Assembly: GCA_937864295.1 (NCBI GenBank)
Contig: CALMJA010000093.1
Coordinates: forward strand, 1 to 48,358
Direction of reading: 5' to 3'
Length of the DNA: 48,358 bases
DNA from: an uncultured Candidatus Altimarinota bacterium
Lineage (GTDB): Bacteria > Patescibacteriota > Gracilibacteria > BD1-5 > UBA6164
This document shows, one piece after another, positions 14,679-45,515 of the stretch (the stretch's first letter is position 1; each line of letters begins with the position of its first letter). The notes below the pieces were generated by a model that saw only the letters and a program-made list of their open reading frames with translations, made no database searches and was not told the origin of the DNA. Both the position numbers and the translations under genes were made by a program.

Positions 14679-14707
14679 TTGACAAAAAATATTTTTTTAT
14701 ATTATAT
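14679..14707 (+). promoter_or_regulatory. Promoter of the zinc operon
   Basis: TTGACA at 14679-14684 is a consensus -35 box. An AT-rich -10 (ttatat at 14702-14707, or an overlapping variant) follows after 17 bases. It lies 32 bases before the ATG of the Fur-family gene. I see no clear Zur palindrome in the gap. Confidence 0.55.
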
Positions 14708-14738
14708 ATTTACTTTATTGATACTAAGTCCCAATAAT

Positions 14739-15134
14739 ATGAACATAGAAAAAATTCTAAAAGAAAAACAAAATAGAGTTACTCCTGAAAGAATAGCTAT
14801 ATTTAATTTTTTAAAAACAAAACATATATTTACATATAATGACATAATGGAGAATTTCAAAGATATAGCTAGGGCTTCTATTTTTAGAACACTAAATCTA
14901 TTTTTAGCATTAGGAGTTATAAGAAAAGTAGATGTTTGAGATACTGCAATGACCTATGAAATAAATGATGAAAATCATCATCATGAACATATGAAATGTA
15001 ATAGCTGTAATTCTATTATAAGTTTTGAATCAGATAATATATGTAAAAAAATATTTGAAGAAGCTAAAAAAATGTGATTTGAAATAAAATCACACAATAT
15101 TTGAATTACATGAATTTGTAAAAATTGTTTATAA
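14739..15134 (+). CDS. zur: Fur-family regulator, probably Zur
   Basis: 131 residues. The N-terminal winged helix (KQNRVTPERIAIFNFL...RASIFRTLNLF) is the Fur DNA-binding domain; the usual ..S.AT.YR.L helix is recognisable as ARASIFRTLN. The metal-binding half has a His cluster (HHHEH), a first CNSC at about residues 88-91 and a second CKNC at about 127-130, the structural zinc sites of Fur proteins. The genes directly downstream encode a zinc ABC importer, so Zur is the likeliest subtype. ATG 14739 is chosen because upstream in-frame sequence overlaps the -35 box. The gap to znuA is 14 bases. Confidence 0.85.
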
Positions 15135-15148
15135 CCTAAAAAAGAAAT

Positions 15149-16165
15149 ATGAAAAAATTAATTTTATGAATAATAGTAACAATAGTTTCAATAATTACTT
15201 TAGTTTGAATTGCATGATTTATTAAATTTAATGTATTAAATGATGATATATATGTTGAAACTAATAGTTGAAATGTAATTAAATATAATGATATAATAAA
15301 AGTCGAAACTTCTATTATACCTCTTGGTTCCCTTACTAATTATATAGGTTGAGATTTTGTAGAAGTAAATTCAATTGTACCTGCAGGAGTTAGTCCACAT
15401 GGTTATGATTTAAAACCAGAACAAATGGTTGATATAGCTGAATCTGACTTGGTAATATATTTAGATTTAGAACATATAGATGGTTTTTTAGATAAAGCAA
15501 TTTCAAATAAAGATAAATTAGTAGTTTCGAAGTGAATAGAATTAATAGAATGAGCTGAACATAGTCACGAAGATGAAGAGTGAGTTGAAGAAGAATTGCA
15601 TGAAGAAGATGAACATCATGAAGAAGATGAACATCATGAAGAAGAAGGTCACTCTGTTGACCCACACATTTGGAATGGTACAAAAAATGCAATAATTATT
15701 GCTGAAAAAATAACTAAAAAATTAAGTGACTTAAGCCCTGAAAATAAAGTTTATTTTGAAAATAATCTAGAGTCTCTAAAAGTTGAATTAGAAAAAGTAA
15801 AAAATGATTTTTTAGTTAAAATAAATGGTAAAAAACAAAGTGAATTTATTATATTTCATGATGCTTATAATTATTTATTTGATGATTTGTGAATTGATTC
15901 AAGTAAAAGAGTAGTATTTCAAAAATCAGTATTAAGTGATCCAAATGGTGCTGAAATGAAAGAATTAATAGATGAAATAAAATTACACTGAGTTAAAGTT
16001 GCTTATAAAGAGCCTCAATTAAGTGATTCTAATTTACAAAAATTATCAAATGAATATAATTTAGAAATACTTGTATTAAACCCTCTTGGTTCTGATATAA
16101 GCAAAAATGGTTATATAGAAAATTATAAAAATAATCTTTCAGCTTTAGAAAAAATATATGAATAA
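15149..16165 (+). CDS. znuA: Zinc/manganese ABC transporter substrate-binding protein
   Basis: 338 residues. The N-terminal hydrophobic segment (about residues 3-25) acts as signal or anchor. The cluster A-I binding-protein fold is clear: first metal His in SPHGYD (about 84), then an unusually long acidic His loop at about 136-170 (repeats of EDEHHEE), then DPHIW. The later segment E.IIFHDAYNYLF provides another His, and the last metal carboxylate region is near the end. His-rich loops are typical of zinc-specific ZnuA and capture zinc for the permease. The TAA overlaps the first codons of znuC, so translation is probably coupled. Confidence 0.92.
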
Positions 16166-16928
16166 TCTTAAAGAAAAGTGAGTTTTAAACTCAAAAGAAA
16201 ATCAAGTTAAGGAAATACTAAAATTAGAAAATATTTTTTTGTCTTATAACAACAAAAAAACTTATGTCTTAAAAGACATAAGTTTTTCGGTTTTCTCTTG
16301 AGAAGTTCTTAGTATTATTTGAGTAAATTGAAGTGGTAAATCTACACTATTAAAAGTAATTGCTTGAATACAAAAAATTGATGATTGAAAAATCATAAAA
16401 AATTACAAAAAATTATCATATGTACCTCAAAAAATAAGTTTAGACAAAACTTTTCCTATAAAAGTTTATGAATTTATAAAAATATATAATGAAAATATAG
16501 ATGATAAAAAAATAATAAATTATTTAAAAAAATTTGATAGTGAAAATTTATTTGAAAAAAATATAAGTTCTCTAAGTGGTTGAGAATTTCAAAAAATACT
16601 TATTATTTCGGCTCTACTAAATGAACCTGAATTAATTTTACTTGATGAACCAACAGCTTGAATTGATATAATTTGAGAAGAAATTTTTTATGAAATAATA
16701 AAAGAAGTAAAGAAATTATTTCCAAAAATTTCAATTATACTTGTTTCACACAATATAAAACTAGTATATAAAAATAGTGATAAAGTTATATGTCTACATG
16801 AAAATAATTTTTGTTGTCATGGTAGTCCACTTGAAGTTTCAGAAAATAAAATAACAGAAAGTATTTTTGGTAAATATACTCTACCATACAAACACAATCC
16901 ACATAATAAAAATACTCATAATAATTAA
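16158..16928 (+). CDS. znuC: Zinc ABC transporter ATP-binding protein
   Basis: 256 residues. Walker A is GVNGSGKST with the first two glycines written TGA, the signature is LSGGEFQK (second Gly is TGA), Walker B is LILLDEPT, and the switch is VSHN. The C-terminus is His/Asn-rich (KHNPHNKNTHNN), as in some metal-transport ATPases. It energises zinc import by ZnuB. ATG 16158 overlaps the znuA stop by eight bases. A later ATG is not available before the ABC fold, which starts at about residue 22. Confidence 0.93.
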
Positions 16929-16931
16929 AAT

Positions 16932-17735
16932 ATGTTTGAAATATTACAATACTCATTTTTTCAGAATGCACTTTTAGCTTGAATTCTCATATCACTTATA
17001 TCTTCAGTTTTATGAGTTTTTATAGTGATGAGAAAAGAAGCAAATGTAACTCATAGTATAGCAAATTTTTTATTTTTATGAGTCGCTGTTTCCCTATTTT
17101 TAAATTGAAATTATTATTTATTTGCTTTTATATTTGCTATAATTTGAAGTTTTTTAATTTATTTTATTGAAAAAACCAAATTTATAACTAGTGAATCTAC
17201 AAAAGAAATAATTTCACAAGCTTGAATTGCATGAGGTATATTTATACTTTGATTTATATGAAATTTAACTTTAGATATAAACAATTTTTTATTTTGAAGC
17301 ATACTTTTTATAAATAAAAGTGATTTAATTATTTTATGAGTTTTATTATTTGTTATTTATATATTATTATATTTTTTCTCTAAAAAATTTTTAAGTATAA
17401 TAATAAATGAAGATATCGCCAAATCTAGATGATTAAAAGTAGATTTATATAACTTATGCTTTTTAATTATATTGTCTATATTTATAGCACTAAGTATAAA
17501 AATGTTTTGAATAATGCTTATTTGAGCATTTTTGATAATACCTGCTAATATAGCAAAAATAGTATCTAGTAGTTTAAAAAATGTGTTTATTTTCTGAATT
17601 ATATTTTCAACTTTAAGTGTAATAATATGACTTTTTACTTCATATTTTTTATGAACATCAAGTTCAGCAACAATAGTTTTGATATTAATAATATTTTTCA
17701 TAATAGCTATAATAAACAAAAGAGTAAGAAATTAA
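16932..17735 (+). CDS. znuB: Zinc ABC transporter permease
   Basis: 267 residues with about eight membrane helices. The family features are visible: an N-terminal QYSFFQNALLAGILISLISSVLGVFIVMRK segment and a THSIANFLFLGVA motif corresponding to the conserved ..SHA..G.A of ABC-3 permeases. It is the third gene of the operon, three bases after znuC. The stop codon sits inside the terminator palindrome. It forms the zinc channel in the cytoplasmic membrane with ZnuC. Confidence 0.92.
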
Positions 17736-19250: not shown

Positions 19251-20897
19251 TTATTTAACACTGAAATGCATCATCATACCTGAAAATAAATGTTCTGATA
19301 TGTGACAATGAGCCATCCATTCTCAAGGATTACTCATATCAGCCAATATCTCTATATTTTCTCATGTTTTTATTAAAACAGTATCTTTCCAAACAAGATT
19401 TGTTTGTTTTTCTCCATTTCTTTCTAATACTAAAAATCTTTGTCCGTGAAGATGAAAAGGATGTTGCATAGGATGAGCTCAATCTTTTTTATTTTCAATA
19501 CGAATTTTTATAATATCACCTTTTTTGAATTGCCAATTTATATCCATATTTTCTTTTTTTGTATCCTCATCAATTATCTTCCATTCATAATTTAGTGAAG
19601 TTGATTCTTTATTCATCATTGGCATATTATCATCCCATTCAATTTCATCATTATTTCACATCATATGTCATCACATCATTCACATATCACTTTCATCAAT
19701 TCATCATTTTTCACCAATATTTCATAATTCTAAAGCTAATTTTTTATCAACTTCTTTTGAAAAATATTGTCTATAATTTTCTATATCTTTTTTTACAATT
19801 TCATTTGTATTTAAAGTTTCAAATTTGTCTTTAAATGATATATCTACTTTTTCACTAGAAACATTAACTTTTCATAAAATTATATCTTCATCTGTTGTTG
19901 AATTTAGTATCTCAAAAATTCATGAATCCGGAGCATATAAATCAACAATATATCTTTCTCAAGGAGAAATAATTAAAGATTCAATAAATTTTTCTTCTTC
20001 ATATTTTCAAATATCACTTCAAATTAATTTCATTTTAATTCAAGGAATTTTTAAATTAAAAACTCTTGTATTAGCTGTATCAGTTATATAAGCTCTAACA
20101 ACTTCACCAGACTTCATATTAAATTCATAATCAGAACTACCATTTACAAACATAGTATTTCAAAATCTTCACATGAGTACATAATTTGTAAAATCTTTAT
20201 AAAATGGTTTTACTTTATCTCAATTTAATAAAATATCATCTAATATAATTGGTCCTTCACGATTTACAAAGTTATTAGAATCCTCTCAAATCGGTTCTAC
20301 TATATAATTTCAATAAAGTCATAATTCTTGTTGTATATCCTCTCTTAAATGTGGGTGATACCAAAAAACTCATTCGTCAGGAAAGCTAACTTCATAAGTA
20401 AAACTACTTCCATATTTTATAGGGTCTTGTTTTCACATCATATCTTTTACAACTCAATCAAACATATCACTAAGTCTTAACCCATGAGAATGCAGTGTTG
20501 TTTCTAGATCAGGAACTTTATTTACAATAGTAATTTTTGCTTTTGTTCAAACTTTTGCTTTTATTATTGGACCAGGAATACTACCATTATAAGAAAGCAT
20601 TTCTACCTCTTTATTTCAAATCATTTTTTTAACTTTAACTATTTCAATTGTATAATTATCACCTTCTTTTAAATTAACTATTTCTTGCTTTTTTTCTACA
20701 ATAGCTTCTATATTTTTTCAATAAATAAGTTCTTCACTTGATACATTTTTATTACTATTATTACCATTCATATTCATCATATTTGAATGAAAATAACCAA
20801 CACTATACATAAATAAATAATAAAATATAACCAAACTTAATAGAGAAATTAAAGATATTATTATACTTTTATTAATATTATTTTTCATATTTTTCAT
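19251..20897 (-). CDS. Multicopper oxidase
   Basis: 548 residues (start 20897, or 20888 in the same frame). There is one N-terminal membrane segment (signal or anchor), then a short Met/Asn-rich stretch and cupredoxin domains. All copper motifs are present: LHSHG at about 140, WYHPH at about 190, HPFHLHG near 465, and HCHISEH near 528 for the type 1 and trinuclear sites. A Met/Asp-rich loop (GMMGGHMMG) near 400 resembles the Met-rich copper regions of CueO-type cuprous oxidases. Probably it oxidises Cu(I) outside the membrane. It lies 30 bases downstream of the copper ATPase, in one operon. Confidence 0.93.
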
Positions 20898-20927
20898 ATT
20901 TTTAAATTTAATAAATAAATTATTTAA

Positions 20928-23900
20928 TTACTTTGTTCATCAAACATCTTTATTCCATATACTTATACCATTTGGCATTTTTCATACCTTTATTTTTCAT
21001 ATTTCTTTTCAAAGAGAAATATCAATTATTGAAATATCATCACTAAGTAAATTTGTAACATAAGAATATTTTCAATTGTTATCAACAACTATTCAATGTG
21101 GTGCTAATCACACCTCTATATATGAATCAATAGTTAAATCATCAATATTTAATCTATAAACTAAATTATTTTTTTCTTTATCAAAATAATAACCTTGATC
21201 AGCAATATATAGATATTTTGAATCTGGAGTTGCATATATTTGAACTGGTCATTTTGACTCTTTTGGTAAATCAATTAAATTTGTTTTAGATGTTTCTATA
21301 TCATAAACTAATATTTGTTTAGAACTATATAAAGTTGCAAAAGCATATTTTCAATTTTTAGTAACTGCAGTTTGTACAACTCAACTATCTAATCATATTT
21401 TTTCTAATTTTTTTGAAACTATATCAAAAATTAAAAATCATTTTCAATCTAACAATGCAATAAAAATCCTAGAATCATCATTTGATAACCTTAAACCATG
21501 AGGTCAACTTCAATCTCAAAGACTGATTTTTTCTTCTATATTATAAGTTAAAGTATTTATTATATATAACTCTCATTTTTCTTGCAATGCTACATATGCT
21601 TTATTATTTTTTGATGATAATACAATATGAGCTAAATGAGTATCATAATCTATAGGAATTCTTTTTATTATTTTATCTGTAATTGGATCAATAACTATAA
21701 CTTGATCAAATATTTTATTTTTTTCAACTTTTTTATTTTTTTCATCTCTCATTACATTTGCAGTAACCCAAACACTTTTACCATTTGGAGAAACTTGAAC
21801 ATTATGAGCCATAAATAATATTTTTTTTCAATTTTTAACTTCAACAAGACTAATAGTTTTGATAACCTTTTTAGATGTTGAATCTATAACTTTAACTTTT
21901 GATTCTCATTCCAAAGCAACATATACTTTTTCTTCAATTAATTGATTATTAATTTTTAAAGAAAATAAAAATCAAAATATAAGACTTAAAAATAATATAA
22001 TTATAAAAATAATTTTCTTTAAACTTTTTCAACTATTAAATCTTTTCAACCTCAAACTATTACTAACTACACTTACACTACTCATACTCATAGCAAAACT
22101 TGCAAATATAGGATTTAAAAGTCATAAGATAGCCAAAGGAATACCTATAGTATTATAGATAAATGCCCAAAATAAATTTTGTTTAATTATAAAAAGTGTT
22201 TCTCTTGATAATTCAATCGCTTGAATTACTTTTTCTAAATTTCATTTTACTAAAACTATATCACTTGATTCTATAGCAATATCGCTTCAAGTTCACATAG
22301 CTATTGATAAATCAGCTTGAGATAATGCTGGAGCATCATTTATACCATCTCATACAAAAGCTACTTTTTTTCATTCTTTTTGTAGTGCGATTATTACATT
22401 TAATTTATCTTCTGGCATAACTTCAGAAAATATAGTGTCTATTCATATATTTCTTCATATAAATTCTGCTGTTTTTTTTGTATCTCATGTAAGCATGATT
22501 ACTTTTATACCTTTTTCATGTATTTTTTTGATAGTTTCAATAACTCCAAATTTTGGTAGATCTAGTAATCAAATGATACCAAAAATCTCATTATCATTTC
22601 AAATTATTATTGGTGTTTTTCAAGATTCTGTAAGTTTTTCAATTTGAATATTTATTTCATCGCTTATTGTTTCAAATAGTTTTTTATTTCATAATCTTAT
22701 TTTTTCTCAATTTATTTCTCAAATTATTCATTTTCACCTTATTTCTTCAAAATTATTTACATCATAAATTTCATTTTTAAAATCATAATTTGATATAGAT
22801 TTTGATAATGGATGATTAGATAATATAGATAATGATTTTGCAATTGATATAAAAACTTCTCTATCTTTTGTTAAATTAATTATATCTGTAACTTCAGGTT
22901 TTCAATTTGTAAGAGTTCCTGTTTTATCAAAAACAATTACATCTAATTTACCTGCTTTTTCCAAAGTTTCAGCATTTTTTATAAGTATACCATTTTTTGC
23001 TCCAACTCATGTTCAAACCATAATTGCAGTAGGTGTTGCAAGTCAAAGTGCACAAGGACAAGCTATAACCAAAACGGCAACTGATCTAATAATTGATATA
23101 CTTATATCTCATGTAACAAAATACCAAAAAATAAAGGTTAAAATAGAAATAATTATAATAATTGGAACAAAGATTCATGAAATTTTATCTGCCAAATGTT
23201 CAATTGGTGCTTTTGAACTTTGTGCTTGTTCTACCATTTTTATAATATTAGCCAAAGTTCAATTCGCATTTGTTTTAATTACTTTTACATTTATATTTCA
23301 ATCTAAATTTATAGTTGATCAAAAACATTCACTTCATACTTCTTTATAAACAGGTAAACTTTCTCAAGTTAACATTGATTCATCTATATTTGCACTTCAA
23401 GTTAAGATAATTCAATCAAGAGGTATTTTTTCTCATGATTTTACAACCACAACTTCTCACTCAACTACATCATCTATATTTTTTTCTACAACTTTTAATC
23501 AACTTAAAACATAGGCTTTTTTTACTCATAATTCAAGCAATTTTGATATAGCATCTCACGCTTTTGCTTTAGCTTTTGCTTCTAAATATTTTCATAAATT
23601 TATAAGAGTTATAATAGCAACTGCTGCTTCAAAATAGACAACATATCAACCTAAAAACATAACAATAAAAGAATATATAAATGCTGTTAATGTTCATAAT
23701 GATACTAAAGAATCCATATTAAAATGTAATTTCAATAATGATTTAAATGCTCAAATATGGAAATGATATCAAAATATAAAAACAACAATAGCTGATAAAA
23801 TAGAGTAAATATACATCAATAAATCTACTCATAAAAATGTTTTTCAAATCATATAATCACTAAACATCATTGAAAAAACAGGGATAGAAAAAATAAGTGA

Positions 23901-24164
23901 TCATAAAAATAATTTTAGATATTTTTTTTCAGTTTCTTTATTTTTATTAATTTTTATATTTTCTTCTACTTCAAATCAATTAGATTCTATTTCTTTTTTT
24001 ATTCTTAAAAAATCAACTAGATTTTCATCAAATTCTACATTGGCTATATTTGTAGCCAAATTTATACTAACTTGTTTAACTCATGGTAAATTTTTTATAG
24101 TATTTTGATTTAAATTTACACAACTAGCACAAGTCATTTTTTTTATAATAAACTTTTTTTTCAT
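20928..24164 (-). CDS. copA: Copper P-type ATPase fused to a C-terminal beta-propeller
   Basis: 1078 residues in one open frame. Residues 1-70 are an HMA-like domain with TCASC at 11-15. The P1B ATPase core follows: LTGES, the CPCALGLATPT metal site, DKTGTLTNG phosphorylation site and GDG-type hinge region, ending in the usual [29 protein letters not shown] tail. Instead of stopping, the frame continues through a hydrophobic helix (about 712-735) into some 340 residues of YncE/NHL-like repeats ([39 protein letters not shown]). No TAA or TAG occurs in the joint (22020-22091). It exports Cu(I); the propeller should lie outside the membrane and may hand copper on. The fusion is unusual. Confidence 0.88.
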
Positions 24165-24170
24165 ATTTCT

Positions 24171-25505
24171 TTATTTAATAATTATTTGTCCTTGAGTCAT
24201 TCACATACTAGCACAAACTATGTCGTATTTTCAAGGTTTTGCATTATAAATTTCATACTCGATATCAACTCATTTTGTAATTCTAGAAACTTTATTTGAA
24301 ACACCTGGAATAACTTGAGTAGACATACATCCAATTCAATTTGATGTTGGTGTTATAATTATTTTATAATTTCCTCAAGATTTTAGTTCTATAAAACTAG
24401 GTATAGTTTGATATCAATTATGACTAACTTTTACTATTTCTAATTCTTTAGTTAAATCTGCATTTGGATTAAAATATTTTTCATCTTGAACTTTATTAAA
24501 AGAATTAATATTTAAATCTATGTATTTCAAAAGATTATATGAGTTTAAAATAGTAGAAATTCAAAAGAAAATAATAACTGCTCATATTATTTTACTTAAA
24601 ATTACAAATTTTTTATTTGTAAAATAACTAGATCCTAATCAAAGAGAATATAAAACTGGAAAAGTTCAAAGTGCAAAAAACATCATAACTAATCATCAAA
24701 CTAAAAAACTTCAACTTCAAATAGCTAAAAGTTGCATAGTCTGTGTAAATCAACACGGTAAGAAAAATGTTAGAGCTCAAACTATTGGAGCATATTTAGG
24801 ATTTCAAAGTTTTTCTATTTTTCATATAAAACTTTTTGGCATATGTACACCAAATTTAGTTATGCTAGGCAGAATTCATAATATATTTAATCACATATAA
24901 AATAAAAGTATACCTACAAAAAATGTAATTATTCAAGTAAAAGTAAAATTAAAATTAATTGTCTTCCCTAAATATCAAAGAATTCCTCATAATATAAAAA
25001 ATCATAGTATTCTTCATAATTGAAAAGATGTTTGAACTTTTAAATGTCATAAAAATGATTTTTCTTTATCAAAATATTTTGAAAAGCCAATTATAATTCA
25101 TCATGTAATTGCTAAACAAGTAGAAATACTTGCTACAATTCATATCAAAATTGCACTCATATAATTTATACTATTTGTATCTGGAATAAAAGAGTTTAAA
25201 TCAAAAATTTTAGATGAAATCAATAATAAAACAACAATCATAATTGCTATAATATTTAATAAAAAATTATTTTGATTTACTTCTGATTTTATTTGATTTT
25301 TTTCTTCACTAACAGAAAAATTATTTTTTTCTATAATTTCAACTATTTTTTTATAATCAGATTCTGATTTATATTCTACCTCCATTATTCCCTTTTTATG
25401 ACTTACCATAATGAGATTAACATCTTTAATATTTTTTAATTCTTTTTCTAAAATAACCTCACAACTGATACAATGCATTCATTTAATTTGAATTAATTTT
25501 TTCAT
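24171..25505 (-). CDS. HMA - TauE/SafE-like membrane - cupredoxin protein
   Basis: 444 residues. Residues 1-70 are a heavy-metal-associated domain (IQIKGMHCISCEVIL, MHCxxC at about 10-14). A linker and about seven membrane helices follow (85-370), with the GILLFYMGLNILG and PCGFTQTMQ segments seen in the sulfite-exporter TauE/SafE (cytochrome-c-assembly-like) family. The C-terminal 70 residues (IIITPTSNGIGCMSTQVIPG, YDIVCASMGMTQGQI) look like a small cupredoxin with possible Cys and Met ligands. The architecture suggests copper or heavy-metal handling across the membrane. Only six bases separate it from the copper ATPase. Confidence 0.8.
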
Positions 25506-36946: not shown

Positions 36947-37020
36947 ATAAGTGTAAAAACAACACTATCTTTTTTAGAAAATATATAAAACATTTTCTTT
37001 TTTATTTAAAAAATAATAAG

Positions 37021-37033
37021 TGTATATTTTACA
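37021..37033 (+). promoter_or_regulatory. Probable NrtR operator before pncA
   Basis: TGTATATTTTACA is an 11/13 match to the perfect repeat before pncB. It lies 25 bases before the pncA ATG, overlapping the likely core promoter. Confidence 0.5.
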
Positions 37034-37058: not shown

Positions 37059-37664
37059 ATGAAAAAAGAAGCAATGATAGTTGTAGACTATCAAAATGAT
37101 TTTGCAAATCCAAAATGAAGTTTATATGTAAAAGGATGAGAAACACTATTCCCTTTTATAAACTCACTTATGAGAGAAGTAAAATCTAAATCATGAATAA
37201 TTATAACAAGCCAAGATTGGCATCCAGAAAAACATATGTCATTTGCATCTACATATTGATTAGATGATTATAGCATGAAAGACTGAGAGTTAAAATGGCC
37301 AAAACACTGCGTTGCAGATACTTGGTGAGCAGATTTCTTAGATTGATTTAATAAAAATTTAGTTGATAGAAAAGTATTGAAATGATTTGAAGAAAACCTA
37401 GATTCATTTAGTAGTTTTGGTTGAGTAGAAAAAGAAACTTGATTAAATTTAGATGAGATTTTAAAATCATATAATACACAAGTATTACATGTAGTTTGAT
37501 TAGCAACAGAATATTGTGATCTAGCAACTATACTTGATGCAAGAAAATTATGATATGAAGTAATTGTTCACACAAAATGAATTTCTGCAGTCAATGTAAA
37601 CCCTAACGACTCTGAAAATGCAATAAGACAAATGAGGGAATCTTGAGCTATTATTTTACCTTAA
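37059..37664 (+). CDS. pncA: Nicotinamidase
   Basis: 201 residues. Cysteine-hydrolase fold with IVVDYQNDF (catalytic Asp at about 10), TSQDWHPEKHMSF with the metal-site His/Asp, KWPKHCV, and VVGLATEYCDLATILDA holding the catalytic Cys at about 152. It converts nicotinamide to nicotinate, the first step of salvage. It is the first gene of a six-gene NAD block. The stop is 35 bases from pncB; an NrtR-type operator lies in that gap and another before this gene. Confidence 0.93.
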
Positions 37665-37670
37665 AATAAG

Positions 37671-37683
37671 TGTAAATATTACA
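37671..37683 (+). promoter_or_regulatory. Probable NrtR operator before pncB
   Basis: TGTAA-ATA-TTACA, a near-perfect inverted repeat, identical (as reverse complement) to the site before nrtR. It lies in the 35-base pncA-pncB gap. Confidence 0.6.
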
Positions 37684-37699
37684 ATAATAAATAAAAAAT

Positions 37700-39052
37700 A
37701 TGAGAAATAATTTATATACACCTACTGATATATTTGCAGTAGCGAGAAATGAAGCAGAAGTAGATAATCTATTAAATACAGATATTTATAAATTTATGAT
37801 GCTTGATTTTATCTTAACAAAACCAGAATACAAAGATATAGTTGTAAGATGGAAAATGACTGTAAGAAGTAAAGATGTAAAAACAGCAAATGTAATTCCA
37901 AAAGAAAGTTTAATAGAACAATTGGAATTTACTAAATCTATAAAATGAATAAGTGAAGCTGATGCATCATATTTGAGATGAATGACAAGACCTGACTGAC
38001 AAAGACTTTTTAGAGAAGAAACTATAGAATTTTTAAAAAATTTTAGACTACCAGAATACAAGATATGAGTTGATGAGACAGATAACTATGAGCTAGAATT
38101 TACATGACCTTGGTCAACTTCTATTTTGTGGGAAATATATGGATTAAAAATCATAAATAGTTTATATCTATATCACTATACAAAAAAAGAAAAATTAACA
38201 AATGTTGAATTTAATCAAATCATAAATGAAACTTTAAATAGATTATACAAAGATATATGAATATTTAAAGAAACTCCAGAGTTAACTTTTTCTGAGTTTG
38301 GAACTAGAAGAAGTGCAAGTACAGATTTTCAAAGAATGGTTTTTGACATATTGTCATCTAGTCTACCAAATCAATGTTTATGAACATCAAATGTAATGTT
38401 ATCAAGAGAGTTTTGACTTGCTAATCCAAGATGAACAAATGCTCATGAACTTCGTATGATACCAACAGCATTATATGATGATAAAGAAAAAATAGTAGAC
38501 ACTATGTATGATATAGACAGACAATGGGCAAATCACTTCCCTGGACTTTCTATACTTTTGCCGGATACATATTGAAGTAGTTTTTATTTTAAAAATGCTC
38601 CAAAAGACATAATACAAAATCATAATTGATGTAGATTTGATTCAAAAGATCCTCTTATAGCTATACCTGAATATGTAGATTTTTTATTACAAAACAACAT
38701 AGATCCAAAAACAAAGATTGGTATACCAAGTGATTGATTAAATGCAATAAATTCAAGAAAAATATATGAAACTCAAAGTCAAAAATTATGAAAACTGACT
38801 TTTTGAATAGGAACAAATTTAACAAATAATACTAAATGAACTTGGCCAAGAAAAAACGAAAACTTATGACCATTTTGATCATTTTCAGTTGTAGTTAAAC
38901 CAAGTGAAATTCAAAGACCAGATTGAAAATGGGTATCATGTGTAAAACTAAGTGATAATTTTACAAAAGCTACTTGAGAAAAAGAAAGAATAGAACTTTT
39001 TAGACAAACTTTTGGCCAAGACTGAGCTGAAAAAAAAGAAGTTTTGGTATAA
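37700..39052 (+). CDS. pncB: Nicotinate phosphoribosyltransferase
   Basis: 450 residues. LLNTDIYKFMMLDFIL near the start and FSEFGTRRSASTDFQRMV at about 205-222 are typical; GTSNVMLSREFGLANPRGTNAHE follows with the expected His. Late motifs FGIGTNLTN and SVVVKPSE are present, as are TGA-coded glycines in the phosphate-binding parts. It joins nicotinate to PRPP to give nicotinate mononucleotide, using ATP. Its product goes to the NadD encoded three genes downstream. Confidence 0.94.
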
Positions 39053-39077: not shown

Positions 39078-39968
39078 ATGGAAACAATAAAACAAATAAA
39101 TTGCTCTATTACAGAAGGACTAAATCCTGTAGAAAATGGTGCATGTGATACAAAAAATGAGATTAAAAACATACTTGCTATGCAAAATAGAAAACTAAAT
39201 TACAAAGAAGTAAGTGAAAAATTGATTTCACAATTAAAAGAATACTTAAATGCTTCATGACAAAAATGATTTGTAGTTTGAGTTTCTGGATGAATTGATA
39301 GTGCTCTTGTATCTACTCTTTGTGCTTTAACTTGAGAAAAAGTAACAGTTATGGATTTACCCATTCATCAAAAAAATGATGAGGTAAATAGAGCAAATAA
39401 TCATATGAATTGGTTACAAGAAAATTTTTCAAATGTAGAGAGATTTAGCATTGATTTAACTGAAACTTTTGAAACATTTAAAAAAGCTCTTCCTGAAATA
39501 AGTGATGAAACAGCTAGATATATGGCTTATGTAAACTCTCGTTCAAGATTAAGAGCAGTAACTCTTTATGCAATTTGAAATGAAAAAAATGCAATAGTAG
39601 CTGGAACTTGAAACAAAGTAGAAGATTATGGAATATGATTTTTTACAAAATACTGAGACTGAGCAGTTGATATAAGTCCTATTTGAAATTTATACAAAAG
39701 CGAAGTTTATGAAATGGCAAGATTTTTATGAGTAAATGATGAAATATTAAAAGCAAGGCCAACTGACTGATTACACCCAAATTGAGCAACAGATGAAGAT
39801 CAAATAGGTTGTAGTTATGATGAACTTGAATGGGCTATGGTACAATATGATGAATGAAAAAGAAGTAATAATTTTGATTGAAGAGAAAAAGAAGTTATGG
39901 AAATATATAGTAAAAGACATGAAGTAAATGCTCACAAAATGGTAATGCCAAAAGTATTTGAAATATAA
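39078..39968 (+). CDS. nadE: NAD synthetase (ammonia-type)
   Basis: 296 residues with no glutaminase domain. The ATP pyrophosphatase loop VVGVSGGIDSALVSTL is at about 68-83 (second Gly is TGA). NSRSRLRAVTLYAIGNEKNAIVAGTGNKVEDYGIGFFTKYGDGAVDISPIGNLYKSEVY is the family core, and RPTDGLHPNGATDEDQIG the end-loop. The first 50 residues are somewhat longer than usual. It amidates deamido-NAD, finishing NAD synthesis. 25 bases after pncB. Confidence 0.95.
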
Positions 39969-39987: not shown

Positions 39988-40773
39988 ATGAAACAAATTG
40001 AATTTAATAAAAATATAGTATGTTTTGATGATTATAAAATAGAAGAAAATCCTTCCCTAAGAGATTTTTTAGAAAGTGATTTACTAAGAGAACTAATAGA
40101 TAGTTTTAAAGAAAAAATCATAGTAGTTCCAGGTTGAGACTGAACAATGCTTAGAGCAATAAAAGAAAATTATGAAAAAAATATGCCATTTTTATGAATA
40201 AACTTCTGACATAAATGATTTTTATTAAATTCAAAAGAATCAATTAATCCAAATACAGATTTTCTAGAGAGAAAATATCCTTTACTTGAAATAGAGCTTG
40301 AAACAAATTGAAGTATAAAAAAAGCAATTGCTGTAAATGAAATAGATATCAGATCCGGAAACTGAAAAATGATATCTTTGGATATTTCCCTAACAAAAAA
40401 ACAAAGCATAAATATAGAGTGAGATTGAATCCTTATATCGACTCCAGCATGATCTACTGGTTACAATAGTTCTCTTGGTTGACCTATAATTCCTCATACT
40501 CTAAATGCTTTTGTTATGACGCCAAAAGCACCTTGGAAACCAAAATTACAAGCTCCAGTTTTGATGAGAGATGATGAAATAATAGAAATCAAAAATGTAT
40601 GAAGACAAAATATGGCAGAAATATATTTTGATTCTGTAGAGTTCTTTAAATCAAATGAATTTAATTTAAAAATTCAAAAATATAGAGAAAATATCAGATT
40701 ATTAATATGAGAAGATTATTTAGATATTTGGGATAATAAGGTCCTTTCTGAACAAGGTTTTTTAGAAAAATAA
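39988..40773 (+). CDS. nadK: NAD kinase
   Basis: 261 residues. VVPGGDGTMLRAI (catalytic GGDGT, with two glycines as TGA) at about 47-59, GINFGHKGFLL, NEIDIRSGNGK and LISTPAGSTGYNSSLGGPIIPH are all expected. It phosphorylates NAD to NADP. 19 bases after nadE, same operon. Confidence 0.94.
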
Positions 40774-40795: not shown

Positions 40796-41380
40796 ATGGA
40801 AAATATAGCTATTTATTGAGGAGCATTTAATCCTCCTACTATCTGACATTTTCAAGTTATAAAATGAGTTTTAGAAAAAGGTATAGTAGAGAAAATCATA
40901 TTTTCACCTGACTGAACAAGAAAAGACAAAGACTACAAAATACAAAATATTGATAGAGAAAAAATACTTGAATTATTTTTTTCTGAATTAAAACAAAGAT
41001 GATTAAATGTAGATTTTGAAGATTATTTTTTAAAAAATCCTTGAAATACTACAACTATAGAAGTAGAAAATTATTTTAAAGACAAACTATGATTTTCACC
41101 ATATCACATATTTTGAATTGATACTATTTCAAGTATGCCAAATCGGGTATGAAATGATGAAAAATATATAGAAAATAAACTTAAAAAAATATTTATAAAA
41201 AGAAAAGGTTTTGAAGTTCCTATAAATTTAGAAATGCAAAATTTTAAAATTCTTGATTTAGAAATACTAGAAATTTCATCAACAACAGTTAGAGAAATGA
41301 TAAAAAATAAAATGAGAGTTGAACACATTTTAACTCCAAAAGTAAGAGATTATATAGAAGAAAATTGATTATATATTTAA
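40796..41380 (+). CDS. nadD: Nicotinate-nucleotide adenylyltransferase
   Basis: 194 residues. IYGGAFNPPTIGHFQVI holds the nucleotidyltransferase GxFxPxxxGH motif, FSPDGTRKDKD the substrate loop, and LEISSTTVREMIKN the C-terminal SSTxIR motif. It adenylates nicotinate mononucleotide to deamido-NAD. It lies between nadK and a Nudix gene, all with short gaps. Confidence 0.9.
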
Positions 41381-41390
41381 GAAAAAGATT

Positions 41391-41945
41391 ATGTTAAAAG
41401 AAATAAATAGAGAAACAATAATAAGCTGAAAACACTTAGAACTTGTAAAAATAAATCTAGAATGAGGCAAAGTTTATGAAGCTTGTTCTAGAGTATGAAA
41501 TAAAAATGCAGTAGCTTGATTATTGAGACATACACAAAATAACAGCTATATTTTAATTGAACAATATAGATATCCTGTAAAACAAAAAGTACTTGAACTT
41601 GTAGCTTGATTGATAGATAAAAAATGATTAAGTGAGCAAGAAATAATGCAAGAAGAAGTGGTAGAAGAAACTTGATATAAAAATATAAAAAGTATAGATT
41701 ATTTATGAGAAACTTCAGGAAGTGCATGAAAATCTAGTGAGACAACAACACTATTTGATATAGAAATAATTTGAGAAAAAGATAAGCAAAACTTATGAGA
41801 AATGGAAGATATAAAAGTAATAGAAATCCCATATAATGATTTTGATAAATTTATAAACTCTCAAATAAAATCTTGAATAATTATAGATCCAAAAGTATGT
41901 ATGGCTGTTTATATGACACTAGAAAAAACAAAAAAGTTACTTTAA
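41391..41945 (+). CDS. Nudix hydrolase, ADP-ribose pyrophosphatase-like
   Basis: 184 residues. The Nudix helix is AGLIDKKGLSEQEIMQEEVVEETGYK at about 72-97, with the EExxEE metal ligands (VVEETG), though the Arg of the usual REUXEE is Glu here. VEQYRYPVKQKVLELVAGLID-type sequence before it is typical of ADP-ribose pyrophosphatases. It would recycle ADP-ribose from NAD consumption. It is the last gene of the NAD operon. Its last nine bases overlap the end of the convergent TrmB-like gene. Confidence 0.85.
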
Positions 41946-42671
41946 ACTTTTATAAAGTAACTTAAATAATTTCTTTTGAAACTCTGCTATCTGTTTGTTT
42001 TCTATTATTATAGAAGTTTCAGTATTGAAGTCTATAAATCAAACTTTGTTGGCATAAATTGTCATAAGTATATCATCTTGAAATTCATCTATATTTTCTG
42101 GAATTACTTTTAATTCCCTCTCTAGTCTATTTTTTTTAGATTTAGAAGATTTTGATGACATAATAACATATCTTTCTAAATCTTTTTTATCTCTTTTTTC
42201 TCTATAATCTTTTGGTAAATAATTTTCATTAATAAAATCAGTATCTACTTCTGAAGTAACACGATAAAATACATCTCATTTTTTAGTTGATTCAACTATA
42301 TCATTAAACAAATTTGTAATTCAATTTTTACCTTGATTATAAGTTACAATTGGTTTTTTATCTATGCTTTCATACATATTTTCAAGAGTAGATAAACTAG
42401 ATTTTGTTTGTTCTTGAAGTTCATTATAAGCATCATTTATAATACTTGGTGATGCTGGAAAATAATATTTTTTCTTTCACTCCAAAGTAACAATTACAAA
42501 ACCAGATTCAATCAAATATGGTAATAATCTATAAAGTTGAGTTCTATGTAAAAGAGTAATTTCAGAAATATCTGTAATTGTTGATTTTCAATATTCAAGC
42601 AATTTAAGATAAATGATAGAATGATTTTTTGATAATCAAATTCACTCTAATATTCTTATAAATTTATTCAT
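41937..42671 (-). CDS. TrmB-like winged-helix regulator
   Basis: 244 residues. The N-terminal 80 residues are a winged helix (YLKLLEYGKSTITDISEITLLHRTQLYRLLPYLIESGFVIV), close to the TrmB/sugar-sensing regulator HTH. A helical spacer (NELQEQTKSSLSTLENMYESI) and a C-terminal effector-like domain ending in a beta-rich part (VWFIDFNTETSIIIE) follow. The effector is unknown. It is convergent with the NAD operon, and the two genes overlap by nine bases without any terminator hairpin visible. Confidence 0.6.
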
Positions 42672-42831
42672 ATGTTACAAAATGTTACTAATAATTTTAT
42701 TGTATTTTTTCTTTTATTATAAACAAAATAATTAAATATCAAAAAATAATTGAAACAAAATCATACTTTTAAAAATAAAATTTTATTTTTAATTTATACT
42801 GCTCTTGCATTTACAAATTAATTATAAAAAT

Positions 42832-43821
42832 ATGGAAAAAACAGTTATAGAAAAAAGCATAGCTCAATATAAATCAATTGAACAATATGCTCATATAAGT
42901 TTTGATGATGTTATGAATAAAGTTTCACAAGAAATAGCTGAATTAATAGAAGCAAAACAATCTTGAAATCAAGAAGAAACTTACAAAGAAGCATCTGATG
43001 TTTTGATAAATTTATTATCGATAAGTAGTGAACTAAATATAGCTCCTCTATCTTGAGAAAAAAAAGATTCTGACATAAATAGTTTAATTATAAACTTTTG
43101 AAAATGGAATTCAAAGATTCAAGAATTAAGAAATAGATATTCAAGAGAAGAAACAAATATAAGTGAAGTAGAAAAAATAACAAAATCACTTGTTAGTGAA
43201 GTATTAGCTTTTACTAATCCAGAATTAAGTATTGAAGAAATATTAAAAGAAGCAGTTTGTAAATTTGAATCAAGAAAAGATTTATACAAGCCAAAAATAG
43301 ATTTAAAAGATTTTATCTCAAGTTATCAAAATTTTCCAAAATCTTGAATAAATTTTAAAGATATTTCTCCATTATTAGCAAACAATGAAGCATTAAATTA
43401 TGCAATTTTTGAAATGGCTAACAATTGTAGAAATGCAGATGTAATAGTATGACTTGATGCTAGATGATTTATTTTTTGAACACTCATAGCAAAACAATTA
43501 AATAAACCATTTATAATGATAAGAAAAGCTTGAAAATTACCATGAAAAACAAAAGAAATAAGTTACTGACTTGAATATTGAAATGATAAAATACAAATTC
43601 AAGAAAATGCAATATTAGAATGACAAAAAGTAGCTTTAATTGATGATTTATTGGCAACTTGAGGAACTATAAAAGCAGCAATAGATTTAGTTGAATTATC
43701 ATGATGAATTGTTGATAACCTATCTTTTGTAATTTCTCTTGATGAAGAAAATTTAAAAAAACTAGACTCAAGAAAAGTCCTAAATTGATACAAAATAAAC
43801 AGCTTATTAAATTATAATTAA
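42832..43821 (+). CDS. apt: MazG-like pyrophosphohydrolase fused to adenine phosphoribosyltransferase
   Basis: 329 residues. Residues about 15-60 (VMNKVSQEIAELIEAKQSGNQEETYKEASDVLINLLSISSEL) show the EExxE-helix-D pattern of the MazG/HisE all-alpha NTP pyrophosphohydrolases. The rest of the first 150 residues is helical, perhaps a second half. From about 160 a complete Apt follows: [64 protein letters not shown] and the PRPP loop VALIDDLLATGGTIKAAI at about 268-285. Apt makes AMP from adenine and PRPP. A pyrophosphatase in the same chain could remove pyrophosphate-type by-products or clean nucleotides. The fusion is unusual. Confidence 0.8.
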
Positions 43822-43827
43822 AACATT

Positions 43828-44736
43828 ATGAAAACAATTCTTAGTCATCCAAATTTTGAATATTTAGCAGAAAATATAGCCAATGATAATAAATGAAAAA
43901 TAAATAAAGCAGATATTTCAATGAAAACTTTTCCAGATTCTTGGCCAAATATTTTTATAAATGATGTTAAAGATTTAGTAGAACATCAAGAAATAACTTA
44001 TATTTGAGACTTTTCAAAACCAGAGGATTTATTTATAAATTTTGCAGCAATTAGATGAATAATAGATTATTATGCAAATAAAGTAAGAGTTATACTTCCA
44101 TATTTCCCTGTTTGAACTATGGAAAGAATAGAAACAAAATGAGAAGTTGCAACTGCTAAATATTTTGCAGATATTATGAGCTTATTACCTCAAGCAAGAA
44201 GTGAAAAAACTTCAATTCATATATTTGATATACATGCACTTGTAGAAAGATTTCTTTTTGATTCTCGTCAAGTAAACGCTGAAATCCATACTGCCATGAG
44301 TTTACTTAAAAATGAAATAGAATGAAAAACTATTGTATTTCCAGATGATTGAGCAAAAAAGAGATTTGGAAGAGATTTTAATAATTTTGATACAATAGTT
44401 TGTTCGAAAATAAGGGTTTGAGATGAAAGACATATTCAAATAAAAGAATGAGATCCTGCTTGAAAAGACTTAATAATAATTGATGATTTAATACAAACTT
44501 GATGAACTATTAAAGAAACAGCAGATAAACTTAGAGAATTATGAGCAAAATCCGTTTGCGCTTACGCAACTCATTGAGTATTTCCAAATAATTCTCATAT
44601 AGAATTAGCAAAAAAACTAGATAAACTTATAGTAACTGATTCAATACCAGAAAATATATTATTAGCAAAAGAAGTAATAAATATGCAAGTTATAAGTATA
44701 AAACCACTTATAGAAAAAATAATTTTTAGAGAATAA
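43828..44736 (+). CDS. prs: Ribose-phosphate pyrophosphokinase family protein
   Basis: 302 residues. The layout is of a PRPP synthetase: an N-terminal fold with FPDSWPNIFINDVKDLVEHQEITYIGDFSKPED, RVILPYFPVGTMERIETKGE (modified pyrophosphate-site region), HIFDIHALVERFLF with the conserved DIH and, near 215-230, the ribose-5-phosphate loop DLIIIDDLIQTGGTIKE. It diverges from standard Prs (which has FxDGE and DLH), so it may be a distinct subgroup. PRPP feeds both Apt, just upstream, and PncB. Six bases after apt. Confidence 0.8.
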
Positions 44737-44768
44737 ACTTGTAAAAAAATAAGAGAGTATTATAATAA

Positions 44769-44783
44769 TTGTAATATTTACAA
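44769..44783 (+). promoter_or_regulatory. Probable NrtR operator before nrtR
   Basis: TTGTAA-TAT-TTACAA is a perfect inverted repeat. Its inner 13 bases are the exact reverse complement of the pncB site. It is 13 bases before the nrtR ATG, fitting autoregulation. Confidence 0.6.
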
Positions 44784-44795
44784 TAATAATTCTCT

Positions 44796-45515
44796 ATGAA
44801 TCATTTAATTAAAGAAAACAATTTTTCAAACATATGGGACCCAAATCTAAGCATCCCTATCCCAGCTATAGATATAGTTATTTTTACAATTTACCAAAAT
44901 GAAGTTTGTGTTGTGTTATTAAAACAAGAACTTGAATGAAAAAATAGTTATATCTTACCTGGTTGAATAGTAGCAAAATGATATTCACTAGAAGAAAATT
45001 TTGATAGTATTTTAGAAAGAAAAACTGGTATAAAATGAGTTTATAAAGAACAACTTTATACTTTTTGAAATCCAGATAGAGACAAAAGATGACACACTAT
45101 TTCTATAAGTTATTTTGCACTTGTATGAATGGATAATTTTCTTAAAAATGTAGATTTAACAAAAGTTGCAATTGTAAAATACAAAGACATAAATGAAAAC
45201 AATATTTGATTTAAAGATAAAAAAGTTGGGAGTGACCACTTAGACATAATCAGATATGCTAAACAAAGGTTAAAATGGAAATTAGAATACACAAATATAG
45301 CAAAAGATATGCTTCCAAAAAGATTTAGAATGAGTCAATTACAAGAGATTTATGAAATAGTATTATGAGAAAAAGTAGATAAAAGAAATTTTTGAAAAAA
45401 AATATTTAAGTTAAATATGATAGAAGAAACTTGAGAATTAGATAAATCTACTAATAGACCTGCAAAATTATATAAATTTATTGATAGTGAATTAAAAATT
45501 TACAATGTAATGTAA
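44796..45515 (+). CDS. nrtR: NrtR-type Nudix-related transcriptional regulator
   Basis: 239 residues. The N-terminal 150 residues are a Nudix fold (AIDIVIFTIYQNEVCVVLLKQELEGKNSYILPGGIVAKGYSLEENF). The catalytic box is degenerate (SILERKTGIKG instead of REUxEExG), as in NrtR regulators that bind ADP-ribose without strong hydrolysis. The C-terminal part (about 160-239; RFRMSQLQEIYEIVLGEKVDKRNFGKKIFKLNMIEETG) is the NrtR winged helix. NrtR usually represses NAD salvage genes until ADP-ribose-type ligands bind. Matching inverted repeats lie before this gene, pncA and pncB. Confidence 0.85.

Follow-up and report, generated by a model that had tools for sequence, protein, structure and literature searches.

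A MazG-type domain fused to adenine phosphoribosyltransferase in Gracilibacteria, next to a PRPP synthetase gene and often near NAD-salvage genes

An uncultured Candidatus Altimarinota bacterium of the class Gracilibacteria carries a gene in which a MazG-type domain, modelled as all-helical and with an apparently complete metal site, precedes an adenine phosphoribosyltransferase (Apt). Two intact-looking active sites share one chain and have stayed together over family-level divergence. The parts are known; their combination appears to be new, as no published description of a MazG-Apt fusion was found among the matches listed, going by their titles and the start of their abstracts. In the reading that we favour, and hold with middling confidence, the Apt half would make AMP and the MazG half would hydrolyse an adenine-type or aberrant nucleoside triphosphate (NTP), its inferred substrate, to the monophosphate.

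A single reading frame with two domains

The window, by which we mean the whole stretch of 48,358 nucleotides that was analysed, comes from a genome of 1.28 Mb in 105 contigs, with the fused gene on contig C93. The initial annotation had placed a MazG-like domain ahead of a complete Apt, and this architecture is borne out, now with exact coordinates:

42832..43296 (+): MazG-type NTP pyrophosphohydrolase domain, residues 1-155 (motif, profile matches, alignment)
43036..43254 (+): helical insert in the MazG domain, residues ~69-141 (motif R100-x2-Y/F-S/T-R105; alignment, model)
43297..43821 (+): adenine phosphoribosyltransferase domain, residues 156-329, plus stop (PRPP loop IDDLLATGGT; NCBIfam, PDB, fold)

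Under translation table 25, positions 42832-43821 of the plus strand form a single frame of 329 residues, from an ATG at 42832 to a stop at 43819-43821. Read with table 11, the same stretch holds 16 internal in-frame TGA codons. We favour table 25, in which TGA encodes glycine, because these codons fall on glycines that are kept in Apt proteins, for example that of LEYG.

Three trivial origins were considered and rejected. The pseudogene that table 11 would suggest is ruled out, all of its stops being TGA codons read as glycine. A chance open reading frame is ruled out by the recurrence of the full-length fusion as one frame in 18 of the 353 genomes of the class, with synteny kept and dN/dS below 1: in ten congeneric pairs both halves stayed below 1 in every pair, at 0.16-0.52 for the N half vs 0.06-0.12 for the C half, which makes the MazG half the faster-evolving of the two. 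A phage or defence origin is likewise ruled out. PADLOC matches to the proteins tried were weak (best E 0.0016), none of the 31 matched phage records or 224 matched plasmid records reached at least 80% query coverage, and 77 peptide-pattern matches in viral contigs included no relative of the fusion.

An intact-looking Apt half

Judged by sequence and model, the Apt half looks intact and is of the ordinary adenine phosphoribosyltransferase kind. Residues 156-329 pass the Apt equivalog NF002636 (196.8 bits, cut-off 125) and miss TIGR01090 (176.0 bits, cut-off 185.85). A PDB sequence search matches 4lza (E 1.1e-41), and the model of residues 156-328 superposes on the APRT 9l6j with a Z-score of 27.0 and an rmsd of 1.5 Å over 168 aligned residues; identity to the two structures is 43-47%. 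The whole domain, the PRPP loop and the fold are thus those of plain Apt (NF002636; 9l6j, 4lza), from which the fusion differs by its N-terminal MazG domain. RKxGKLPG, EYG and DDLLATGGT are kept in all 13 rows of alignment A4, which covers 13 of the 18 fused proteins; the PRPP loop deviates from DDLLATGGT in G125 (DDILATGGS) and in G081 and G079 (LATSGT, LATAGT).

The source genome has a second, plain Apt in a cluster of its own, an MTA/SAH nucleosidase-LuxS-apt cluster that obviously serves adenine recycling, and the fused copy may therefore have a separate job. The plain Apts of the source genome, G003, G005 and G026 are all preceded by nucleosidase-like and LuxS-like genes, names that NCBIfam backs in the source genome and G003.

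Elsewhere in the phylum, G574 has a different Apt fusion (L103:1170-2465, minus strand), a frame of 431 residues. Its N half is presumably an MTA phosphorylase, from the look of its sequence; unlike MazG-Apt, it has no MazG domain and follows a plain logic, as a partner of that look would release adenine.

A remote MazG family member with an apparently complete metal site

The N half appears to be of MazG type, to consist of helices and to have its metal site complete. In the model, residues 1-155 form six helices and no strand (mean pLDDT 90.0); a single-sequence prediction of the N-domain was poor (mean pLDDT 43.7) and was not used. Fold searches with the whole protein were filled by APRTs, so that the N half is without a match to any solved fold. 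The putative metal quartet, E34, E37, E53 and D56 (ExxE-x15-ExxD), has the spacing of the Mg ligands of Mycobacterium tuberculosis MazG, given as E119, E122, E138 and D141 in the available part of PMC10014863. Its loss in orthologues had been named as the observation that would speak against a functional domain; a search for the pattern ExxE-x(12-28)-ExxD instead recovers the acidic residues in all 18 fused N-domains, always with the x15 spacing, and also in a stand-alone MazG protein of G013. Across 21 aligned sequences E17, D25, K30, E34, E37, E53, D56, N60, K144, R148 and Y152 never vary, and K144 and R148 lie in the last helix. The available part of the same source describes Campylobacter jejuni dUTPase as working with Lys175, Arg182 and Lys194 (PMC10014863).

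At the level of profiles the resemblance is weak. Residues 1-158 of the window copy score 20.9 bits against Pfam MazG, under the cut-off of 22, and the N half scores 19.9 bits against Pfam PRA-PH (cut-off 21.3) and 19.9 bits against the HisE equivalog TIGR03188 (cut-off 42.7). Each of the 16 sequences in the N-domain alignment matches MazG with an E-value of 1 or less, and the best of them reaches 1.9e-8. A whole-genome MazG search of 12 fused genomes placed the fused loci of G046, G031 and G055 over the cut-off, together with the stand-alone copy of G013; because no match at E<=0.001 came from the other nine of the 12 fused loci, among them that of the window, the N half is, by its sequence, a remote member of the MazG family.

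With the all-alpha NTP pyrophosphohydrolases, among them MazG of Escherichia coli and M. tuberculosis, HisE, dimeric dUTPase and DCTPP1, the N half shares its predicted all-helical build, the ExxE-x15-ExxD motif and the basic residues of the last helix. Unlike that superfamily it has an Apt partner and a helical insert of ~70 residues with an RxxYSR-like motif, and its window copy stays under the Pfam cut-offs. The insert lies between the third and the last helix and is missing in two compact stand-alone relatives.

One rare fusion, probably old

The 18 fused genomes span nine genera and three families, and two matches truncated at contig ends (G115, G119) are left out of this count. In a phylum-wide sample of 379 genomes the source genome alone had the fusion, and a scan of an 84,980-species collection with one narrow peptide pattern, which distant fusions would escape, returned 12 loci. 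The initial annotation knew of no common fusion of this kind, and rarity is indeed what we find, with none beyond these 18 genomes in the other searches run. The N-terminal extension of an Apt frame in G089 revealed no MazG motif on reading.

In an Apt tree of 48 rows (18 fused and 30 plain, leaving out the plain Apts of unfetched loci), the fused Apts, the contig-end fragment G115 and the plain Apts of G118, G120 and G121 form one group, with support of 82/97 that falls short of firm. The three plain Apts join the fused G031 and G122 at 100/99, and the plain Apts of the source genome, G003, G005 and G026 fall elsewhere. Since the Apt halves group together, one old fusion is suggested. A tree constrained to hold the fused Apts, G115 among them, apart from G118, G120 and G121 has a p-AU of 0.0552 and so escapes rejection at the 0.05 level, and later loss of the MazG half in some members is therefore likely, not proven. 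The N-domain tree is compatible with the stand-alone MazG of G013 being either a fission product or an ancestor. As the MazG half evolves faster than the Apt half and is absent from G118, G120 and G121, inside the fused group, it seems dispensable.

Its absence there, with the divergent TrmB-like gene described below still present in G120 and the downstream prs in G118, would suit a MazG half that acts as a sensor, binding an NTP as an energy or alarmone signal and tuning the Apt half with little turnover. Its faster evolution and its attachment to a committed salvage enzyme would suit a sensor as well. We nevertheless consider this reading unlikely, as the catalytic quartet and the lysine and arginine residues are invariant, seemingly beyond what binding alone would need, and G013 has these residues in a stand-alone protein as well.

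The core unit: regulator, mazG-apt and prs

The immediate neighbours of the fused gene are as follows:

41937..42671 (-): TrmB-like transcription regulator (Pfam match), divergent from mazG-apt
42674..42688 (+): GTTACAAAATGTTAC of the divergent promoter, a candidate TrmB operator, with similar boxes in several relatives by eye
43828..44736 (+): ribose-phosphate pyrophosphokinase, Prs (TIGR01251 120.2 bits, cut-off 113)

The Prs gene starts 6 bp downstream of mazG-apt on the same strand, and a canonical prs comes next after the fusion in 13 of the 18 fused loci. A diverged prs-family gene takes this place in G079 and, beyond a frame of 141 residues, in G081; G026, G106 and G107 have no prs next door. 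The TrmB-like gene diverges from mazG-apt in 14 of the 18 loci (none of the four f5 genomes), and the unit is probably controlled by this regulator. A pattern made from the candidate operator occurs three times in the window against a chance mean of 1.9, which is not above chance.

In several relatives a small conserved frame of 92-133 residues, typically ending like VTSDFPGYNESY-GTTTIKF, separates the TrmB-like gene from mazG-apt (or from one of its halves where these are separate). None was seen in the window, and a Pfam scan of five of the seven small frames gave no match at cut-off. Their positions, read from the loci, are:

L038:10419-10727 (-): small conserved frame
L039:10839-11156 (-): small conserved frame
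L040:9983-10270 (-): small conserved frame
L072:8155-8433 (-): small conserved frame
L043:5591-5944 (-): small conserved frame
L032:7057-7458 (+): small conserved frame
L075:2181-2489 (+): small conserved frame

Two further genes were noted downstream of prs in relatives. In the G046 unit an ADP-ribosylglycohydrolase (PF03747, 135 bits; L041:7685-8749, minus strand) directly follows prs, a further link to NAD and ADP-ribose. A protein of 602 residues, in which a CoaD-like nucleotidyltransferase domain (PF01467) is joined to a CoaE-like kinase domain (PF01121), lies two genes after prs in G046 (L041:5873-7681, minus strand) and next after prs in G052 (L043:1730-3538, minus strand).

NAD salvage is a frequent neighbour

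In the window the unit sits within a set of NAD-salvage genes:

37017..37033 (+): NrtR-like box before pncA (source of the search pattern)
37059..37664 (+): nicotinamidase pncA (Isochorismatase over the Pfam cut-off; NF008623 164.8, under the cut-off of 174; start from the family alignment)
37667..37683 (+): NrtR-like box between pncA and pncB (0 mismatches)
37700..39052 (+): nicotinate phosphoribosyltransferase pncB (best match NF003704 262.6, under the cut-off of 379)
39078..39968 (+): NAD synthase nadE (TIGR00552 177.9, over the cut-off of 63.65)
39988..40773 (+): NAD kinase nadK (both Pfam domains over cut-off)
40796..41380 (+): nicotinate-nucleotide adenylyltransferase nadD (best match TIGR00482 76.5, under the cut-off of 112.45)
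41391..41945 (+): Nudix hydrolase, probably of the ADP-ribose pyrophosphatase type (NUDIX 21.9, over the cut-off of 21.1; TIGR00052 40.9, under its cut-off)
44766..44782 (+): NrtR-like box before nrtR (1 mismatch)
44796..45515 (+): NrtR-like regulator, Nudix plus winged helix (NrtR_WHD 77.3, over the cut-off of 27; NF050029 122.7, under the cut-off of 400)

The full cluster lies by the fusion in G000, G001, G002, G003, G005 and G125, and NAD-salvage genes occur in the fetched stretch of 10 of the 18 fused loci, the window included (the G052 contig is only 6.9 kb long). A pncB match is found in 8 of 12 fused genomes and in 12 of the 48 others (Fisher p 0.014); counted by genus, it is found in 5 of 6 with the fusion and 8 of 27 without (p 0.025), both values being uncorrected for kinship; a genome that holds both the fusion and pncB occurs in only three of the six fused genera. 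Because four of the 12 fused genomes (G009, G026, G031, G034) have no pncB match, the link to NAD is not obligatory. We therefore take the core unit to consist of the regulator, mazG-apt and prs, and the NAD-salvage genes to be frequent neighbours of it. The initial view of mazG-apt and prs as a compact purine-salvage unit stands as regards the Prs link and the salvage setting, and is incomplete in that NAD-salvage genes surround the pair in the window and lie near the fusion in these ten loci.

The MazG half might conceivably take part in the recycling of NAD or ADP-ribose, cleaving a dinucleotide or phosphoribosyl by-product together with the Nudix hydrolase and Prs. The six full clusters, the NAD genes near ten loci, the ADP-ribosylglycohydrolase of G046 and the enrichment of pncB, at p-values that ignore kinship, all point this way. 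We regard this role as quite improbable, however, given the four fused genomes without a pncB match, the co-occurrence in just half of the fused genera and the eight fetched regions without NAD genes. Moreover, the known MazG enzymes compared here act on NTPs, and NrtR-like boxes precede pncA, pncB and nrtR, with none found upstream of mazG-apt in a pattern search allowing up to two mismatches. That search, with a pattern taken from the pncA site, gave 15 matches against a chance mean of 4.8, and most of the matches with two mismatches lie elsewhere.

Two other clusters of the window seem to concern metals. Positions 14679-17735 look like a Zn or Mn uptake operon (Fur-like regulator, binding protein with a His-rich stretch, ABC ATPase and permease). 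Positions 19251-25505 (minus strand) look like a copper cluster, with a multicopper oxidase, a copper P-type ATPase that has a long extension at its C-terminus (1078 residues) and a membrane protein that includes a metal-binding domain. Genes related to the copper cluster are found close to the fused gene of L040 as well.

Purine and pyrophosphate metabolism of the fused genomes

PF01259, the single marker of de novo purine synthesis that was searched for, gave no match in 13 of the 18 fused genomes, among them the source genome, and was found in five; since the genomes are 79-99% complete, gene absences are soft. Matches to family I pyrophosphatase (PF00719) were found in seven fused genomes and DHHA2-domain matches in nine, none having both. 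In G106 and G107 the search of three pyrophosphatase families came up empty, and the membrane pyrophosphatase PF03030 was found in none of the 18.

These counts bear on the proposal of the initial annotation that the N-terminal domain could help to drive the Apt reaction, which the analysis does not support. Apt releases pyrophosphate, pulling a phosphoribosyltransferase forward by its disposal would be useful in principle, and G106 and G107 might have need of it. MazG enzymes, however, themselves release pyrophosphate, as stated in the accessible part of PMC10014863, and 16 of the 18 fused genomes have another pyrophosphatase-type gene, which disfavours pyrophosphate removal; as a role of the MazG half it is unlikely, and that the half pulls Apt forward in this way we find scarcely credible.

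By family chemistry, the two products of a MazG enzyme acting on ATP, AMP and pyrophosphate, are also the two substrates of Apt run in reverse. A two-step converter from ATP and water to adenine and PRPP could be imagined on this basis, with the PRPP consumer pncB nearby. The reverse Apt reaction is unfavourable unless driven, and the adjacent Prs already supplies PRPP, both of which leave the converter very improbable. We are equally sceptical of its broader form, an ATP-driven valve in which the MazG half would feed AMP and pyrophosphate to Apt, in salvage or in reverse, and so set the balance of PRPP to adenylate for NAD salvage.

Discussion

NTP hydrolysis is the default expectation for the MazG half because of what is known of MazG-type enzymes, and the reading that we favour, AMP synthesis by one half and NTP hydrolysis by the other, builds on it. 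The Apt half would convert scavenged adenine and PRPP from the adjacent Prs to AMP, and the MazG half would convert aberrant or surplus adenine-type NTPs or dNTPs of the same pool to the monophosphate and pyrophosphate. The fused protein would then supply the adenylate pool and at the same time keep it clean. Many of these cells seem to be without de novo purine synthesis, and in several lineages the unit lies within or beside an NAD-salvage cluster, where AMP, ATP and PRPP would all be in demand. It is possible, as the initial annotation had it, that the domain degrades nucleotide by-products near the Apt site. A further MazG-family gene in the source genome (G000:C15, 49.8 bits) could do the NTP cleaning instead, which counts against our preferred reading. 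So do the score of the window's N-domain under the Pfam cut-off, the nine fused loci that gave no MazG match, the seeming dispensability of the MazG half, the five fused genomes with PF01259, the four without a pncB match and the altered PRPP loops of G125, G079 and G081.

Two known systems come close in logic. In the cyanophage S-2L, the MazG-like enzyme MazZ supplies a nucleoside monophosphate to a purine-nucleotide enzyme, according to the available part of PMC8342488; unlike the fusion, MazZ is encoded by a separate gene, is specific for (d)GTP and feeds PurZ, with no phosphoribosyltransferase involved. HisIE (HisE-HisI) likewise joins an all-alpha NTP pyrophosphohydrolase to another enzyme of phosphoribosyl nucleotides, as described in the accessible part of PMC10242683; it differs from the fusion in that it acts on PR-ATP in histidine synthesis and has a cyclohydrolase, not a phosphoribosyltransferase, as its partner.

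Gene fusions are strong clues to functional coupling, and the coupling here would be between base salvage and an NTP hydrolase of the house-cleaning type. Many of the bacteria concerned seemingly lack de novo purine synthesis, and the fused gene lies beside a gene for PRPP synthesis and often near genes for NAD synthesis. Were the hydrolase to act on the products of salvage, base salvage would have a built-in clean-up step. The fusion also offers a MazG-family protein whose physiological substrate may be guessed from its fusion partner.
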